Source: a virus
Strand: one strand, 5' to 3'
IMG/VR virus record: IMGVR_UViG_3300032677_000081
Span: 1 to 37,752 of that record
DNA length: 37,752 nucleotides
Positions 2,862-22,278 of the stretch are shown piece after piece. Under the pieces are notes generated by a model. It was given only the letters and a program-made list of their open reading frames with translations, was not told the origin of the DNA and searched no databases. Numbering within the stretch: position 1 is the first letter of the stretch; the number at the start of each line of letters is the position of its first letter. Made by a program: the position numbers and the translations under genes.

Positions 2862-4739
2862 CTATCCAAAAAGTTTGCTGACAGCGGCACTGTTTGTACT
2901 CAACTGAGTTGTTGCATTATTAACTACATTTGTAGCGGTTCTTAGGGCAGTGGCCGCGCTGCCGCCTAGCAGTTGACTAGCAGTTCCTTTGATACTGTTT
3001 AGGATATTTTGTGCTTGGGTAATGTCTGCGCTGGCGCCCAAACTAACTCCAGATGGAAAGTCAAACTGCGGAACAGGCACTAACGGATTTCCGATAATTC
3101 TAGTTAAAGCGGCATCTACTGTGGCACGATTTACTGTGTTACTATATCCAGGTGCAGGCTGTGTTGATGATACTAAACTATCACTGCTCAGTAATGAAAA
3201 ATTCACACTAAACTGACTCATACTACCAAACACATCTAAACTACTGCCCAAGCTACCTAAAGCACCACTGGCAAGATCTTGTAAATTACCCAATGATCCT
3301 TCAACAAGATTTGTAGCATCGCTTAATGCACCAGAAGCTAGATCATTAAGATTGCCAGCCAAATCAAGTGCTCCTCCAGAGAACGATCCTGTTATGCCAG
3401 TAAGACTAGTACCAATACTACCAAGGCTATTGGTCAGTCCGCCTGTGAGTGTGTTCAATCCGTTGGTAGTTAGACTATTTAAACTACCGGTTAATCCTGT
3501 TGTCAATGTGCCTAGCCCTAGACTGTCAGTCAACGAAGAGATGCTGGGTATATTAAGGCTGCTAAGAGTACTGGTCAATTGAGTAGATAGACCGCTGAGA
3601 TTACTACCATTGGCCCAAAGGCTTGTAACCGCTGTACCAAACTGACTGGCATTGGTAACTAATGCGCCAACATCTCCAGCTATGGTAGTGGTTAACCCGC
3701 TGGCGGCTTGTGTAATAGTAGAACCAAGGCTGTCAAGTGAAGTAGAGGCCAATGTACTGATATCACCAATAGTATTTCCTACACTAGATAGTGTATTACC
3801 GACCGATGTTACAGCGCCGTTGATAAGACTGGTTACATTTACATTAGACAAACTAGAAACAAGATTGCTGGCGCTGATATTGCTCAACGAGTTGCCAATG
3901 ATTCCGCTGAGTCCTCCACTCAAGGCAATTTCTCCGGCAAACAATGCTATGCTACTAGCGTTTTGTAGCACACCATTTCCGTTGCTGTCTGTTGTGTAGA
4001 CTTGTCCTGTGTTTAGACTTGGTGGGTTAGGTTGTGTACTCTGTATTACTCCAGCCGCTGTAAGAGAATCATAGCTGTTCTGCATGATTTCAGTTTGTAT
4101 CTGTGTTTGCAACAAAGGATCGTTTAGTACATCCTGAACACTGTTTACACCATTCTGTCCAGTCCATACCCCGGGCGCACTCATTACACTGACAAACTGA
4201 TCTGGATTATTAGCTAGGTAAGTGTCATAAGTTCCGGGTACAACATATCCTGCTCGTTCCAGCTGTGGACAATTAAGACCGTATTGACCAATGCCCACCT
4301 GTGCGGTGATTACATTAGCTGGTTGATTTACTAGGTTTGAAATTTGTGCTACCAATGCTTGCACCTGTGCAGGCTGTAGTGGTCCTACTGTGTTAGTTCC
4401 CAACGGCGGATTAACTAGGGCATAGTCAGCACCGTTGATTGGACTGGTTAATGGAACATTGGTTAATTTGGGTACAGGAGCAACAATAGGAGAACCTGAC
4501 ACAATGGCTAATATAGTACTGTTAGGAACGCCGGCAGTGTCTCGATCTTGTCGACTCAGTGCAAAATTTGCCAACTTGGTAGATGGTGCAGACAGTGTTT
4601 GTCCTGCTGTATATCCTACCAAACTACCAGCGGCAACTTGACTGTAAAATACATAGTCAGCCTGCGCCTGTGTAGTTCCTGCTGGAGCATACATTACAAA
4701 ACGATTGCCACTAGGAAGTGTGTAGGTAAATTGTGACAC
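2862..4739 (-). CDS. Ser/Leu/Gly-rich baseplate-associated structural protein
   Basis: A 625-residue protein starting at GTG, 2 bp after the gp5 stop, with a GGGGGA Shine-Dalgarno sequence inside the gp5 end. No named family is recognised with certainty. Residues 1-60 form a compact start (FTYTLPSGNRFVMYAPAGTT). Residues about 145-235 form a globular helical segment containing GIGQYGLNCPQLERAGYVVP and APGVWTGQNGV, the style of hub-associated proteins of large aquatic myoviruses. Residues about 265-510 are a low-complexity array of short Leu-spaced units (SLGN, SLTG, LASGAL). The C-terminal 100 residues are again globular. The position between gp5 and gp25 argues for a baseplate or spike accessory role, possibly a needle sleeve or cell-wall contact protein. 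The function is inferred from position only. Confidence 0.55.
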   Translation of the reverse strand: MSQFTYTLPSGNRFVMYAPAGTTQAQADYVFYSQVAAGSLVGYTAGQTLSAPSTKLANFALSRQDRDTAGVPNSTILAIVSGSPIVAPVPKLTNVPLTSPINGADYALVNPPLGTNTVGPLQPAQVQALVAQISNLVNQPANVITAQVGIGQYGLNCPQLERAGYVVPGTYDTYLANNPDQFVSVMSAPGVWTGQNGVNSVQDVLNDPLLQTQIQTEIMQNSYDSLTAAGVIQSTQPNPPSLNTGQVYTTDSNGNGVLQNASSIALFAGEIALSGGLSGIIGNSLSNISASNLVSSLSNVNVTSLINGAVTSVGNTLSSVGNTIGDISTLASTSLDSLGSTITQAASGLTTTIAGDVGALVTNASQFGTAVTSLWANGSNLSGLSTQLTSTLSSLNIPSISSLTDSLGLGTLTTGLTGSLNSLTTNGLNTLTGGLTNSLGSIGTSLTGITGSFSGGALDLAGNLNDLASGALSDATNLVEGSLGNLQDLASGALGSLGSSLDVFGSMSQFSVNFSLLSSDSLVSSTQPAPGYSNTVNRATVDAALTRIIGNPLVPVPQFDFPSGVSLGASADITQAQNILNSIKGTASQLLGGSAATALRTATNVVNNATTQLSTNSAAVSKLFG

Positions 4740-17723: not shown

Positions 17724-18404
17724 ATGAAAATACAGTTCGCACATAATTTTGGCCACCAAGAACAGGGTGAGTTTTTTCACTTTGGTTGTGAGTTAGTTGA
17801 TGTAGCTCCAGAAGAATACAATGCCGCGTTAGACTTTGGATTTTTACAATCGATACGCAACAACAAAGTAGTATGGTATCAAAGTCGCAGTACTCGTGTT
17901 GCTGTGGCCAACACCGATTATGAGTTATTGCCAGATGCCTGTATTATTGAAAATCCTACGCCGGCTCAGTTTACAGAAATGGATCATATCTATACTGCCT
18001 ACTGCTACTATAAAAAGTTCAAAAAGTATTTTGAAATTGGACAACACTTGCCGTCGGATCGCTTTATGGCCTATTACCAGAGTGATGTATTTGTGGCCTG
18101 GGCCAAACTAAGACACTATTCTGATCAGGCCATAGAAACCAGTTTGTTTGCCTGGGATTATAGTCAGCCACACACCAGATTAGGCAGTCGTAGTCTAGAG
18201 CACGAAATAGCCTGGGCCAAACGCGAAGGCTATGAATATGTTTATCTAGGACCCGGCTACGAGCGATCCAGTCTGTACAAGGCTGATATACAAGGATTTG
18301 AGTGGTGGACTGGGCAAGAGTGGAGTCAGGACACTGATCAATATCGTCAGCTGTGCAAGCGTGACAGTAAGATCAAGTTGCCCGTGGATCTTTACGGTGT
18401 TTGA
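17724..18404 (+). CDS. ATE-like GNAT-fold acyltransferase
   Basis: A 226-residue protein. Its C-terminal half resembles arginyl/leucyl-tRNA-protein transferases of the ATE/BPT family: a Tyr-rich helix (HIYTAYCYYKKFKKYFEIG) that parallels the F..Y..Y segment, then RSLEHEIAWAKREGYEYVYL and GPGYERSSLYKADIQGFEWW, ending in GQEW, close to the family's YLGYWI...M.YK..F.P.E.L....W. Such enzymes add an amino acid to protein N-termini and mark them for degradation. It may instead be a GNAT relative with another acyl donor. It is divergent from the DUF6614-like gene across a 37-bp A/T-rich gap and overlaps the convergent 18373-18882 gene by 32 bp. Confidence 0.5.
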   Translation: MKIQFAHNFGHQEQGEFFHFGCELVDVAPEEYNAALDFGFLQSIRNNKVVWYQSRSTRVAVANTDYELLPDACIIENPTPAQFTEMDHIYTAYCYYKKFKKYFEIGQHLPSDRFMAYYQSDVFVAWAKLRHYSDQAIETSLFAWDYSQPHTRLGSRSLEHEIAWAKREGYEYVYLGPGYERSSLYKADIQGFEWWTGQEWSQDTDQYRQLCKRDSKIKLPVDLYGV

Positions 18405-18882
18405 ACAAGACTTCTAAATAGTCCGCAGGCCAAGTGTCATAAAAGCCCTTCTTGGCAACAAGCTGGGCTTTTTCATTTAGATCGCTGAGATCTTGAACCA
18501 GTGCCAGTGCATAGGTACCTTGATTCATTGAAACACCGTTGACAATTTCAGGATCGCCAGGATGATCTTCCAACGCTATGAAACCTTTGGGCAGTAAAGC
18601 TTCTTCGTTGGCAGCCGTAACATCACTTGCAAATTGTTCATAAGAAAACTCATCAGGATTGTAGGCAAGAATTAACACACTCTTGCCACCTATACCATCA
18701 CGGGCAACATTGACCAGATCAAAATAAGGATTGACACCTACTCTAACGGTAAAGTCACGATCCAGTCTGGCCTTGCGAGCATATGGACAAGGAGCCCAGC
18801 CGCCTAGTGCTGGGTGCGGAACTTCTACAAAAGTTTCTATCCAGTGCTCTATATCTGATTGTACAGTGGCTAAGTCTAACAT
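18373..18882 (-). CDS. Unrecognised 169-aa protein
   Basis: I do not recognise the family. The protein begins LDLATVQSDIEHWIETFVEV and has a WAPCPYARKARLD motif at about residues 29-41. An alternating alpha/beta body follows, with SVLILAYNPDEFS and a C-terminal YDTWPADYLEVLFKHRKDP. The CPYA segment resembles the CPFA-type motif of several small bacterial proteins, but no catalytic set is clear. Its start overlaps the stop of the 93-codon frame (TAATG), so it is co-transcribed with gp26. Its 3' end overlaps the plus-strand ATE-like gene by 32 bp. Confidence 0.7.
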   Translation of the reverse strand: MLDLATVQSDIEHWIETFVEVPHPALGGWAPCPYARKARLDRDFTVRVGVNPYFDLVNVARDGIGGKSVLILAYNPDEFSYEQFASDVTAANEEALLPKGFIALEDHPGDPEIVNGVSMNQGTYALALVQDLSDLNEKAQLVAKKGFYDTWPADYLEVLFKHRKDPRAT

Positions 18883-19163
18883 TAGAAAAATGGCAATCCA
18901 GATTTTTTAGTAGTATCCAAGTTTTCTTTGATGAGATCACTGATTAAAGTACGCTCGTCTGAACTTAGATGTAAAGCCTGATCGTATGATATTCCACCAC
19001 GCATGTACCAGGCCATTTTTAACGCCTCCTCCTTGATTGTAGCAGACTCTTTTTTCATTTCCTCAATCAGCTCGGAAATTTTTTCAGGAGGTAAGGTCAG
19101 GAGGCGCGATCGAAAAAACTTGTCATATCCAAGGTAAGCTGTTGCTCGTATTTGAATTGGCAC
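18882..19163 (-). CDS. Overlapping gp26-downstream frame (gp51 position), probably reached by -1 frameshift
   Basis: An open frame of 93 codons from a GTG at 19163, overlapping the gp26 end by 67 bp in the -1 frame. The conserved-looking part is IKEEALKMAWYMRGGISYDQ followed by LIKENLDTTKKSGLPFF, a pattern familiar from small T4-like proteins next to gp26. T4 has gene 51 (hub assembly) directly after 26, so gp51 is the positional equivalent, but the length is much shorter. The GTG has no Shine-Dalgarno sequence, and upstream the frame is closed by TGA. A slippery T TTT TTC in the overlap offers entry by -1 frameshifting, giving a gp26 extension of 76 residues. Independent initiation cannot be excluded. 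Confidence 0.65.
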   Translation of the reverse strand: MPIQIRATAYLGYDKFFRSRLLTLPPEKISELIEEMKKESATIKEEALKMAWYMRGGISYDQALHLSSDERTLISDLIKENLDTTKKSGLPFF

Positions 19164-19945
19164 TCTGGACAGGTTAAATCAACTGGTTGTAGTTCTGAAT
19201 CAGATTTAATTTTTACCAAGTGATCTCGGATATCGTTAAACAGCGAACGATCGCAGTTCTTAAAAAATTCTTGTATAAATTCGGGCTGGTTGACCATGGC
19301 ATTGGGAGTTCTAATCAATGACACACTCTGGGCGATTGTGCGTACAGTAATTTCAGTTAATTTTTTGAGTGCATGACTCAATGCCATAACTTTTTCTTGG
19401 TTAGCTTCGCCGTTGTCATTGAGATCTGGCAACATCTGTAGTGCTCGCTGTTCTTCAAACTGTACTTGATTGTTGCTGTTAACTTCTTTGTAGCTGAGTG
19501 GTTTAAAGAAAATTTCAATATCGCCATGCTTGATGCTGTGTTCAAAATCTGGAGTTTTCATCTTAGCCAATACAGTACGCAGATCCAAAGCCAGTTCAGT
19601 AATGGTCTGACACTGTGGACATTCGGTAGAAAAATCCATATTTTGCCCGTAACTGGCAATTCTAATACCAACAAGAATAGCATCAATGTCAATACTAGGC
19701 ACTGACCAGCCGTCTTTGATATTAGGAACACAACTTTCAATAACACTGACCACTGCCTGACCGTTGAACAATGCATCTGGAGTACGATAGGTAATTTCAT
19801 CAATGGCCGTCATGGGCAACACCGGCAATTCACCGTTCTGCGGCATCGCTAGTGTGCCTTCTGGATAAAAATTACCCTGACTAGGTAGTCGAATGTACAG
19901 CGCAGGCTGTCTAAAATACTGTGATAAAGGGTTGTTTGGATTCAT
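19097..19945 (-). CDS. 26: Baseplate hub subunit gp26 (T4_baseplate family)
   Basis: A 282-residue protein. The N-terminus (ALYIRLPSQGNFYPEG, then LPVLPMTAIDEITYRTPDAL, FNGQAVVSVIESCVPNIKD) and two CxxC pairs (CPQC at about residue 130 and CPEC near 260) match the T4 gp26 hub family, PF12322 as I remember it. T4 gp26 is 208 aa. It acts in hub assembly together with the tape measure protein. AAGGAAAAACCC precedes its ATG, and it is divergent from the tape measure gene with only 26 bp between starts. Four sense codons before its TGA lies a T TTT TTC heptamer in the right frame to shift into the overlapping 93-codon frame. Confidence 0.82.
   Translation of the reverse strand: MNPNNPLSQYFRQPALYIRLPSQGNFYPEGTLAMPQNGELPVLPMTAIDEITYRTPDALFNGQAVVSVIESCVPNIKDGWSVPSIDIDAILVGIRIASYGQNMDFSTECPQCQTITELALDLRTVLAKMKTPDFEHSIKHGDIEIFFKPLSYKEVNSNNQVQFEEQRALQMLPDLNDNGEANQEKVMALSHALKKLTEITVRTIAQSVSLIRTPNAMVNQPEFIQEFFKNCDRSLFNDIRDHLVKIKSDSELQPVDLTCPECQFKYEQQLTLDMTSFFDRAS
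19112..19118 (-). other. Candidate -1 ribosomal frameshift site T TTT TTC
   Basis: On the minus strand the gp26 codons AGT TTT TTC contain a canonical X XXY YYZ heptamer (T TTT TTC) in the zero frame. A -1 slip would decode Phe-Phe and then continue with CGA in the frame of the 93-codon ORF, giving a product of about 354 residues alongside the 282-residue gp26. No strong stem-loop was found just downstream, so the efficiency is unknown. Confidence 0.55.
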
Positions 19946-19971
19946 GGGTTTTTCCTTGGATAAGTATAATT

Positions 19972-22278
19972 ATGGCTGATATCAATGACGATCAAATTAA
20001 TGCGCTGAACGATAGCATTCGCGAACTAATCGAAATTAACAAAGGATTAGCCGCGGCCCTGGGTGTTGATGTCAAAACTAAAAAGACTGATAATAGCGAG
20101 TTTGGCAAAAAAATGGCCGAAGCTAACAAGTCGTTAGATGCCATGAAAAATACAGTAAATGCTGTTACTGGCACACTGGGATCTTTGAGAAATGAATCTG
20201 GCGCACAAGCATATAACAAGGCCATTGATTCAACAGCGGCTGGAATCAATAAACTTGGCAATTATCTAAGTGTACTTTTTCCAGAATTTTCATTATTAAT
20301 TAAAACTGTACAATTTGCTACCCTGTCGCTGGCAGAGTATGGTAAAGCAGTAAGCAAGCAGGCAGATGCTCTATATAAAAGCTATCAAGATTTAAGTGCC
20401 ATTGGTGCTACAACTATCTCTGGTGGTTTAGATGAAGTTTTTACTAACCTACAACAGTTTGGTTATACAGTAAAACAAATTGGCAATTTAGGCGCACTGG
20501 TTAAAGACAGTGCTGACAATCTAGCAGTATTGGGTGGTACGGTAGCAGACGGTACAGCGCAGTTTGCTGAAATGAGTCAGGCAGTTCGTGAAAGTGCCTT
20601 TGGCGATCATTTGCGTATGATGGGCTTTACTATTGATAGTCTTAACAAAGGTACAGCAAATTATCTAAGACTACAAGCGGCACAAGGCGAGCTAGGAAAT
20701 AAAACTCAAGAGCAACTGACCGAAGGTGCTGAACAATATCTAGTTCAGCAAGATAGACTCACTAAACTTACTGGCGCCAGTGCCGATGAGCAGGCTAAAC
20801 TTAAAGAGTCTGCTCTGTCAGAAGAACGATTTGGAGCTTCAATTCGTCTGCGCGAACGACAAGCCAAAGAAGCAGACATACGCGGCGACCACGAATTGGC
20901 TTCAAAATTACGAAAACAAAACGAAGACATTCAAAATGTCAGTGTTCAAGTATTAAAAGCTGGGGGTAAAAATCTAGCACAAGGTATGCGTGACATATCC
21001 ACTGGATTTGTTACTAGCCCGGCTGCCCGTCAATTTCAAATTGGTTTTCCTAGAACTGCTGAACTGATAAGAAAAGGTGCCGATCAGATAACCATTGCCA
21101 ACAGCATGAGAGAAGAAGCTGTAGCCAATGAACAAAAGTTTGATCGACTAAGAGCAGTAGGAGCCGCAGATGCAGTAGCAGGTATTGGTGCAGAAGTTGC
21201 CGCAATGGCCAACTTAAAGGATCAAACAGAAGCCAATGCTAAAATTACGCATTATCAAAATGATCAAGCTGAAGCTGCCGCAAAAAACATGACATTGATG
21301 CAGGTTAAACAACAGCATTATCAACAGGCATTGGATCGTTTGGTTGAGATAGGTATAGGCCCAGTAACTGCCGCAATGAATATATTAGCTGGTGCTATAG
21401 AAACGATTGGTGATCTAGTAGAAGATATTCTACACCCACTGGATTTCCTAGCAGGCAAAACTACACACCAACTTGAATCAAAATTAAGAGATGCTACTGC
21501 CGCGGGAGATACAGCTAGAGCTAAAGCCATTAGAGAAGAAATGGCCAAAGGCGGTGGTGCCACATCATTTGACACAGCCAAATCCGGCGGCGGTGGGTAC
21601 ACTACCGGTGCTAGAGGAATGCAAAACGCCAGCGATGTTGATAAGATTTTATCCACAATTCGTGCCAAAGAATCCGGCGGCAATTATGGTGCACAGGCCA
21701 AAGGCAGTTCTGCATCAGGTGCATATCAATATATCGACAGCACATGGCAGTCTTTAACCAAGAAATTTAGTATTGGTGCTGAATTTAAAAAAGCCAAAGA
21801 TGCTCCTAAAGAAATACAAGATTTAATTGCTCGCAAAAATGTTGAAGAAATTCTAGCCAAAAATAATGGCAGTTTGTCTGCGGTTGCCAACACCTGGTAC
21901 ACAGGCAATGCACAAGGCAAAATGAGTGCTCAAGCACTGGCAGCCAATAACGGTTTGACAGCAGAAAAATATGCATCCGGTTGGATGAACATGTTTAATA
22001 AAATGGGTGGGCCAGCTGTACAAACAGCATCTACTACACCGCAAGCGCCAATAGCGGCACCTACAGGCAGTTATAGTTCCAGTGTAAGTAAACCCACGGA
22101 TCTAACAGTTCCCAAAGACAAAACAGCATCCACCGGAGAAACTGCAATGGCAGCCAATGATCCTAGCATGTTGCATGAAAATCTGATCGGCGCATTAAAA
22201 TCTGGATTTGCCGAAATGTTGCGTGTACAGACTGCACAGTTATCAGTACAGAAACAACAATTAAAAGCTACTAGCTAA
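19972..22278 (+). CDS. Tape measure protein with C-terminal lytic domain (gp29 position)
   Basis: A 768-residue protein from the ATG at 19972 (an upstream in-frame GTG at 19921 lies inside the divergent gp26 gene and is unlikely). Residues 1-550 are mostly helical, with hydrophobic segments around 95-120 and 455-490 (GIGPVTAAMNILAGAIETIG), as in tape measure proteins. Residues about 555-675 form a transglycosylase/resuscitation-factor-like domain: IRAKESGGNYGAQAKG with the likely catalytic E567, SGAYQYIDSTWQ, then SAVANTWYTGN. It would set tail length and cut peptidoglycan during entry, compensating for the lysozyme-less gp5. The position between gp26 and gp20, and the protein's length, support the role. 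By length, a tail of roughly 85-115 nm is expected (inference). Confidence 0.82.
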   Translation: MADINDDQINALNDSIRELIEINKGLAAALGVDVKTKKTDNSEFGKKMAEANKSLDAMKNTVNAVTGTLGSLRNESGAQAYNKAIDSTAAGINKLGNYLSVLFPEFSLLIKTVQFATLSLAEYGKAVSKQADALYKSYQDLSAIGATTISGGLDEVFTNLQQFGYTVKQIGNLGALVKDSADNLAVLGGTVADGTAQFAEMSQAVRESAFGDHLRMMGFTIDSLNKGTANYLRLQAAQGELGNKTQEQLTEGAEQYLVQQDRLTKLTGASADEQAKLKESALSEERFGASIRLRERQAKEADIRGDHELASKLRKQNEDIQNVSVQVLKAGGKNLAQGMRDISTGFVTSPAARQFQIGFPRTAELIRKGADQITIANSMREEAVANEQKFDRLRAVGAADAVAGIGAEVAAMANLKDQTEANAKITHYQNDQAEAAAKNMTLMQVKQQHYQQALDRLVEIGIGPVTAAMNILAGAIETIGDLVEDILHPLDFLAGKTTHQLESKLRDATAAGDTARAKAIREEMAKGGGATSFDTAKSGGGGYTTGARGMQNASDVDKILSTIRAKESGGNYGAQAKGSSASGAYQYIDSTWQSLTKKFSIGAEFKKAKDAPKEIQDLIARKNVEEILAKNNGSLSAVANTWYTGNAQGKMSAQALAANNGLTAEKYASGWMNMFNKMGGPAVQTASTTPQAPIAAPTGSYSSSVSKPTDLTVPKDKTASTGETAMAANDPSMLHENLIGALKSGFAEMLRVQTAQLSVQKQQLKATS

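Follow-up and report, generated by a model that had tools for sequence, protein, structure and literature searches.

A probable programmed -1 frameshift in gp26 homologues of T4-like phages and its likely relation to T4 gp26 and gp51

The gpG/gpGT pair of phage lambda, like E/E' of P2, is encoded by two overlapping ORFs; the second has no start of its own, and ribosomes reach it by slipping -1 shortly before the first one ends. The pair adjoins the tape-measure gene, and the slip adds a small helical C-terminal extension. In chaperones of this type, the tape measure is bound by the short form and tail tube protein is recruited by the extension, and the two forms are required in a fixed ratio. 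In a 2016 review of recoding, this G-T frameshifting was described as conserved 'except T4' (PMC5009743). T4 gp26 and gp51 are classed among the chaperones of hub assembly; the particle itself lacks gp51 (PMC3004832). In cyanophages and vibriophages, gp51 lacks the first ~200 residues and was taken for a shortened gene by Sullivan et al. (2010); a gp26 fusion by frameshift is not described there (PMC3037559). In Bacillus phage 0305phi8-36, the G/GT relation of gp143/gp144 comes from two paralogous genes with no frameshift, the arrangement that we propose below for T4, but that pair belongs to another protein family and no frameshifting relatives of it were shown (PMC2147016).

We analysed the gp26 region of a 37,752-nucleotide stretch of viral DNA (IMG/VR record IMGVR_UViG_3300032677_000081, positions 1 to 37,752), the whole of which is called the window. 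The features of the region are:

19953-19957, minus strand: Shine-Dalgarno sequence AAGGA of gp26 (-5.4 kcal/mol).
19945-19097, minus strand: gp26 homologue, zero-frame product of 282 aa (PF12322 T4_baseplate; phrog_150 baseplate hub).
19118-19112, minus strand: slippery heptamer T_TTT_TTC, zero-frame codons Phe277-Phe278.
19097-19099, minus strand: zero-frame TGA ending the short product.
18882-19112, minus strand: predicted -1-frame extension past the slip, 76 aa from Arg279, stop codon at 18882-18884.
18882-19163, minus strand: GTG-started small ORF, not a real gene start; no Shine-Dalgarno sequence (-0.7 kcal/mol), start unconserved in relatives.
19972-22278, plus strand: probable tape-measure protein, 768 aa from ATG 19972, assigned from position, size and neighbours.

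The functional unit is 19945 to 18882 on the minus strand; the coordinates 18882-19163, under which the locus was first reported, cover the GTG-started small ORF only. The zero-frame product matched PF12322 (3.3e-15) with 56.8 bits, against a curated Pfam cut-off of 24.5, and is thus a member of the family. It also matched phrog_150 'baseplate hub' (6.4e-17) and contains two CxxC pairs (C109/C112 and C259/C262). Its gene ends ATG ACA AGT TTT TTC GAT CGC GCC TCC TGA, with the heptamer in the phase for a -1 slip and four sense codons before the TGA. The -1 frame is open from directly after a TGA at 19181..19179 to 18882, and GTG 19163 is the sole usual start codon upstream of the slip in this frame. 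The predicted fusion has 354 aa (278 shared zero-frame residues and 76 in the -1 frame), and the extension is helical, with the motif FFRxRLL...WYMRGG..Y..A..LS..ER.... The preliminary description had reported the heptamer at 19112-19118 and its distance from the TGA, a 354-aa slip product with 76 new residues, the TGA that closes the small frame upstream, and a GTG start without a Shine-Dalgarno sequence; all were confirmed in the sequence and its translation.

The layout is that of lambda and P2: overlapping ORFs, no proper start for the second, and a candidate -1 slip near the end of the first. The differences from lambda are that gp26 is larger (about 280 aa), belongs to PF12322 with CxxC pairs, had no detected fold match among solved structures and, in the group of the window, is transcribed divergently to its neighbour, the probable tape-measure gene. 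We propose that the majority of ribosomes would end at the TGA and release the 282-aa short form, and that a minority would slip by -1 on T_TTT_TTC, where tRNA-Phe would re-pair in both ribosomal sites (P and A), and would continue to the 354-aa long form. The heptamer alone is at chance level in the window (TTTTTTC, 11 observed vs. 10.9 expected). Consequently, its presence in the window was dropped as evidence and the case is comparative.

The first set of relatives consisted of 14 from IMG/VR, followed by jumbo phages and two cyanophages from GenBank. Heptamer and -1 frame were found in 14/14 of the IMG/VR relatives and in the GenBank phages Atu_ph07, Phosso, PA5oct, RaK2, 121Q, GAP32, CBB, XbC2, Munch, BF, Hallingskeid, Kaldavass, SCTP-2, Vibrio 2.275.O, S-CAM8 and P-SSM3; XacN1 and RAS14 have TTTTTTT in place of TTTTTTC, again with the -1 frame. 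A joined gene of gp26 plus extension was absent from the GenBank annotation tables examined. Three wider scans, after removal of identical genes, gave 203 distinct genes: 79 window-like (group A), 43 from jumbo and related phages (group B) and 81 cyanophage-like (group C). The slip site was at the homologous place in 203/203 of them (200 TTTTTTC, 3 TTTTTTT) with the zero-frame phase kept, many of these genes being closely related and hence not independent events (19 clusters at 50% identity, 9 at 35%). The extension behind it measured 56-74 aa across the 203 genes, and the four shorter ones leave their contig. Alignment of relatives was the check suggested in the preliminary description, and heptamer, frame relation and small frame were all kept in 203/203 genes; relatives of this type offered no example of the contrary case named there, a well-initiated small gene that lacks a slip site.

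Only 1 of 905 other ORFs of at least 150 codons from the same loci had both the heptamer and a long -1 frame. Four codon pairs can encode Phe-Phe, and the preceding base is free. At other Phe-Phe pairs within the gp26 genes, T_TTT_TTC occurred in 2/140, while codon usage predicts 10-13%. The residue preceding the Phe-Phe of the slip site is variable (S, N, T, H, R, D, A, Y or G), yet the codon before TTT TTC ends in T without exception, against a codon usage expectation of 44-63%. TTTTTTC with the -1 extension was also present in KVP40, Moby and AsFcp_2; Rhizobium phage RL2RES (position 3642) has TTTTTTG instead of TTTTTTC, with the extension, and in HTVC008M the slip position is occupied by a T8 run. 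The site thus ranges over KVP40, cyanophages, and Pelagibacter, Aeromonas, Stenotrophomonas and Rhizobium phages. In Serratia phage 2050H1 (Ackermannviridae, 3663-3866), the -1 extension is kept and gp26 ends CAG GTT TTC ATC TGA, which contains no canonical heptamer.

Homopolymer errors are frequent in metagenome assemblies, and the frame break could in principle be a sequencing or assembly error in the T6 run, gp26 being really one long ORF. The relatives refute this, since the same run and frame relation recur in 203 distinct genes, and the finished isolate genomes of 121Q, P-SSM3, RaK2 and CBB, as well as KVP40, show T6C with the same frame relation; we regard the chance of such an error as negligible.

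The -1 frame appears constrained from the slip onwards. Its first codon past the slip was CGN (Arg) in 192/197 aligned relatives, and Arg was the first -1 residue in 74/74 genes of group A, 39/43 of group B and 79/80 of group C. The zero-frame reading at the same codon varies (E, A, G, D or V). A constant Arg in the -1 frame over a variable zero-frame residue indicates that selection acts on the -1 frame beginning with the codon directly behind the heptamer. Moreover, 177/203 genes have no ATG, GTG or TTG between the upstream stop and the heptamer in the -1 frame. The first start codons downstream of the slip are scattered, with a mean Shine-Dalgarno energy of about -1.5 kcal/mol, and were preceded by a good Shine-Dalgarno sequence (-5 kcal/mol or better) in 10/202 genes. 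The absence of a start before the slip, the scattered starts with weak Shine-Dalgarno sequences and the Arg constraint together argue that the extension is not an independent gene.

These data bear on the reading of the small frame as a stand-alone gp51, an overlapping gene that either has a functional start codon or is translated through stop-start coupling to gp26. Databases do annotate small ORFs here in 121Q, GAP32, CBB and KVP40, the extension is annotated 'gp51' in P-SSM3 and HTVC008M, and the seventh codon past the slip is ATG in roughly half of the cyanophage-type genes. However, the annotated starts disagree among relatives, the start and Shine-Dalgarno counts given above run against it, Arg and other conserved -1 residues lie upstream of any start, and an invariant T_TTT_TTC would be unexplained. 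We therefore consider a separate gene very unlikely. An internal ATG in the -1 frame at window position 19016 (minus strand) has a very strong Shine-Dalgarno sequence (GGAGGAGG, -12 kcal/mol) and could yield a 44-aa C-terminal fragment; conservation of this start is not evident. In T4, an internal start, 26', is annotated.

Profile comparison of the window-type and jumbo-type extensions was significant (4e-39). The window-type and cyanophage-type profiles did not match significantly (probability 2.3%); for these two, the case for homology is their position and the FFR with which both begin.

We searched for elements that might stimulate the slip, computing folding z-scores in 50-nt windows along the gene. 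The z-score was lowest or near-lowest at +6 to +18 past the heptamer in every group; at +6 it was -1.74 in group C, -0.93 in group B and -0.55 in group A (-0.63 at +18 in the latter). A Shine-Dalgarno-like GA[G/A]GG stood 14-10 nt upstream of the heptamer in 81/81 cyanophage-like genes, compared to 4.4% in the control. This is the spacing of the dnaX stimulator. The codons within it are biased (GAG 72% vs. 31% usage, GGG 27% vs. 5%), and the element, with its biased Glu and Gly codons, is probably a frameshift stimulator. In the cyanophage relatives, then, the slip would probably be aided by GA[G/A]GG 10-14 nt upstream and by a stem-loop from about 6 nt downstream, and in the group of the window such helper elements would be weak or absent. 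The signals stand out clearly in group C, are less marked in group B and weak in group A, and fall short of significance in the window itself. There, the Shine-Dalgarno-like position holds only a weak GGA, and no significant structure was detected downstream of the heptamer (z -0.12), which leaves a strong hairpin unsupported. The slip efficiency in the window may accordingly be low, or its stimulator may be of another kind.

The long form could also be produced by slippage of RNA polymerase, rather than of the ribosome, on the T6 run, which is present and retained in all of the genes. RNA polymerase slippage usually requires longer A/T runs than T6C. The run, short and closed by C, is held in the exact X_XXY_YYZ phase, and the downstream structure and upstream Shine-Dalgarno signals of the relatives are stimulators of ribosomes; transcriptional slippage is for these reasons very unlikely. 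Ribosomal slippage agrees with a conserved, in-phase X_XXY_YYZ heptamer and a -1 frame that is open and constrained directly after it, and gp26 is very probably a programmed -1 frameshift gene. That the slip occurs, and in a minority of ribosomes, is inferred. In the open-access literature, to which the search was confined, no earlier description of a frameshift in gp26/gp51 was found.

The T4 proteins can be placed in this scheme. T4 gp26 (208 aa) and gp51 (249 aa) each span the whole PF12322 model (8.8e-64 and 3.9e-52 respectively) and matched each other in BLASTP (2e-6). T4 gp26, whose last residues are ...GLKEFFELL, stops at the same point as the short form. In gp51, a further C-terminal part (residues 147-246) matched phrog_634 (1.2e-23), the family matched by the cyanophage -1 extensions at about 1e-30. 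Profile alignment, with modest support, placed the start of the KVP40- and cyanophage-type extensions at gp51 residue 200. By contrast with the frameshift genes, T4 genes 26 and 51 are separate, on opposite strands, and neither contains a slippery heptamer or a frameshift. T4 gp26 and gp51 are paralogues, and they look like the counterparts of the short and the long product made from two genes. Their paralogy and the short/long correspondence are a point that the preliminary description had missed.

The cyanophage 'gp51' is the predicted -1 extension of gp26, and the short gp51 of vibriophages equals it likewise. This would explain why cyanophage and vibriophage gp51 has no counterpart to the N-terminal part of the T4 protein. 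As the frameshift layout is kept in KVP40, AsFcp_2, cyanophages and jumbo phages, the split T4 form is most simply the derived one. We think it reasonably likely that in the T4 lineage the gene was duplicated and split, each copy becoming frozen in one form with loss of the frameshift, a direction of change read from the distribution of the layout. By the same reasoning, the -1 frameshift in gp26 is on balance likely to be general, probably ancestral, in the T4 superfamily, with T4 26/51 as its frozen duplicated products. If true, a single answer would cover both the relation of 26 to 51 and the question of why T4 seemed to break the rule of tail-gene frameshifting, and T4 would conform to the rule of paired tail chaperones. 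The gp26/gp51 annotation would also be corrected in many genomes of jumbo phages, cyanophages and Pelagibacter phages, in which the long form is missing and the extension fragment is currently annotated as a hypothetical protein or a truncated gp51.

The neighbourhood of gp26 relates to the function of the two products. The surrounding genes in the window are T4-like (baseplate wedge, hub/lysozyme, late sigma, gp46-like, portal and major head protein), and the order portal, large protein, gp26 is common to the window, 121Q, RaK2, GAP32 and CBB. In HTVC008M, the order is tail tube, gp26, 'gp51', small ORF and tape measure. A large ORF adjoins gp26 in the relatives too. In the window, this gene, the probable tape-measure gene, is divergent from gp26 with 26 bp between the start codons (window 19943-19974). 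Because the starts are back to back, the upstream signals of each gene must overlap the coding sequence of the other. The overlapping ORF pair thus adjoins what is probably the tape-measure gene. Its product has a transglycosylase-like domain near the C-terminal end (PF06737, 2.8e-4, below the cut-off).

The preliminary description had compared the pair with lambda G/GT; the position beside the probable tape-measure gene agrees with this, and a match in fold was absent. AlphaFold2 modelled gp26 with a mean pLDDT of 92 and the helical extension with 85. No PDB entry matched the gp26 profile by sequence, and no solved structure matched the gp26 or extension models by fold at E <= 0.001. The gp26 model matched only other gp26-like and uncharacterised viral proteins, e.g. 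Aeromonas phage 25 gp26. With no fold or sequence match to indicate gpG-like homology, descent of gp26 from the lambda gpG-type chaperone family is unsupported.

Short and long products would assist tail assembly as a chaperone pair that serves the tape-measure protein encoded next to them, as lambda gpG/gpGT do, and such a G/GT-like role is probably the correct one. Under the duplication proposed for T4, gp51, the unexplained catalyst of hub assembly, would then act as a tape-measure chaperone of the GT type. The frameshift might instead be real and its products hub components or catalysts of baseplate assembly, as suggested by the hub assembly names of T4 gp26 and gp51 and by some T4 genetics, which put gp26 in the hub (PMC3004832). 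We consider this unlikely, though clearly worth weighing: gp26 neighbours the probable tape-measure gene in every group, and two nested products of a single gene are the arrangement seen in lambda G/GT. Moreover, the printed virion list of CBB includes the neighbours 247 and 251 but leaves out the small ORF and the gp26 homologue (249 and 250; PMC5259590). The GenBank label of the CBB gp26 homologue is 'structural protein'. In PA5oct, the gp26 homologue has no mass spectrometry note, while the two genes upstream (portal and structural protein) have one. T4 gp29 is both hub protein and tape measure, so the hub and the chaperone readings may merge.

The cell-wall hydrolase-like domains near the C-terminal end of the probable tape-measure proteins differ among relatives, being transglycosylase-like in the window (19921-22278, plus strand) and endolysin-like in relative L005 (752-2977, minus strand). 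A 169-aa gene (window 18373-18882, minus strand; phrog_28122, weak DUF6875), whose start overlaps the stop of the -1 extension, is also found downstream of gp26 in several group A relatives. The distant gp26-like genes of uncultured phage LR756508, immuto, BRock, SP-15 and GXN1 have no T6 heptamer, and their downstream extension lies in the +1 frame, a layout suggestive of a shift by +1 or -2; several of them sit between the tail tube and tape-measure genes.
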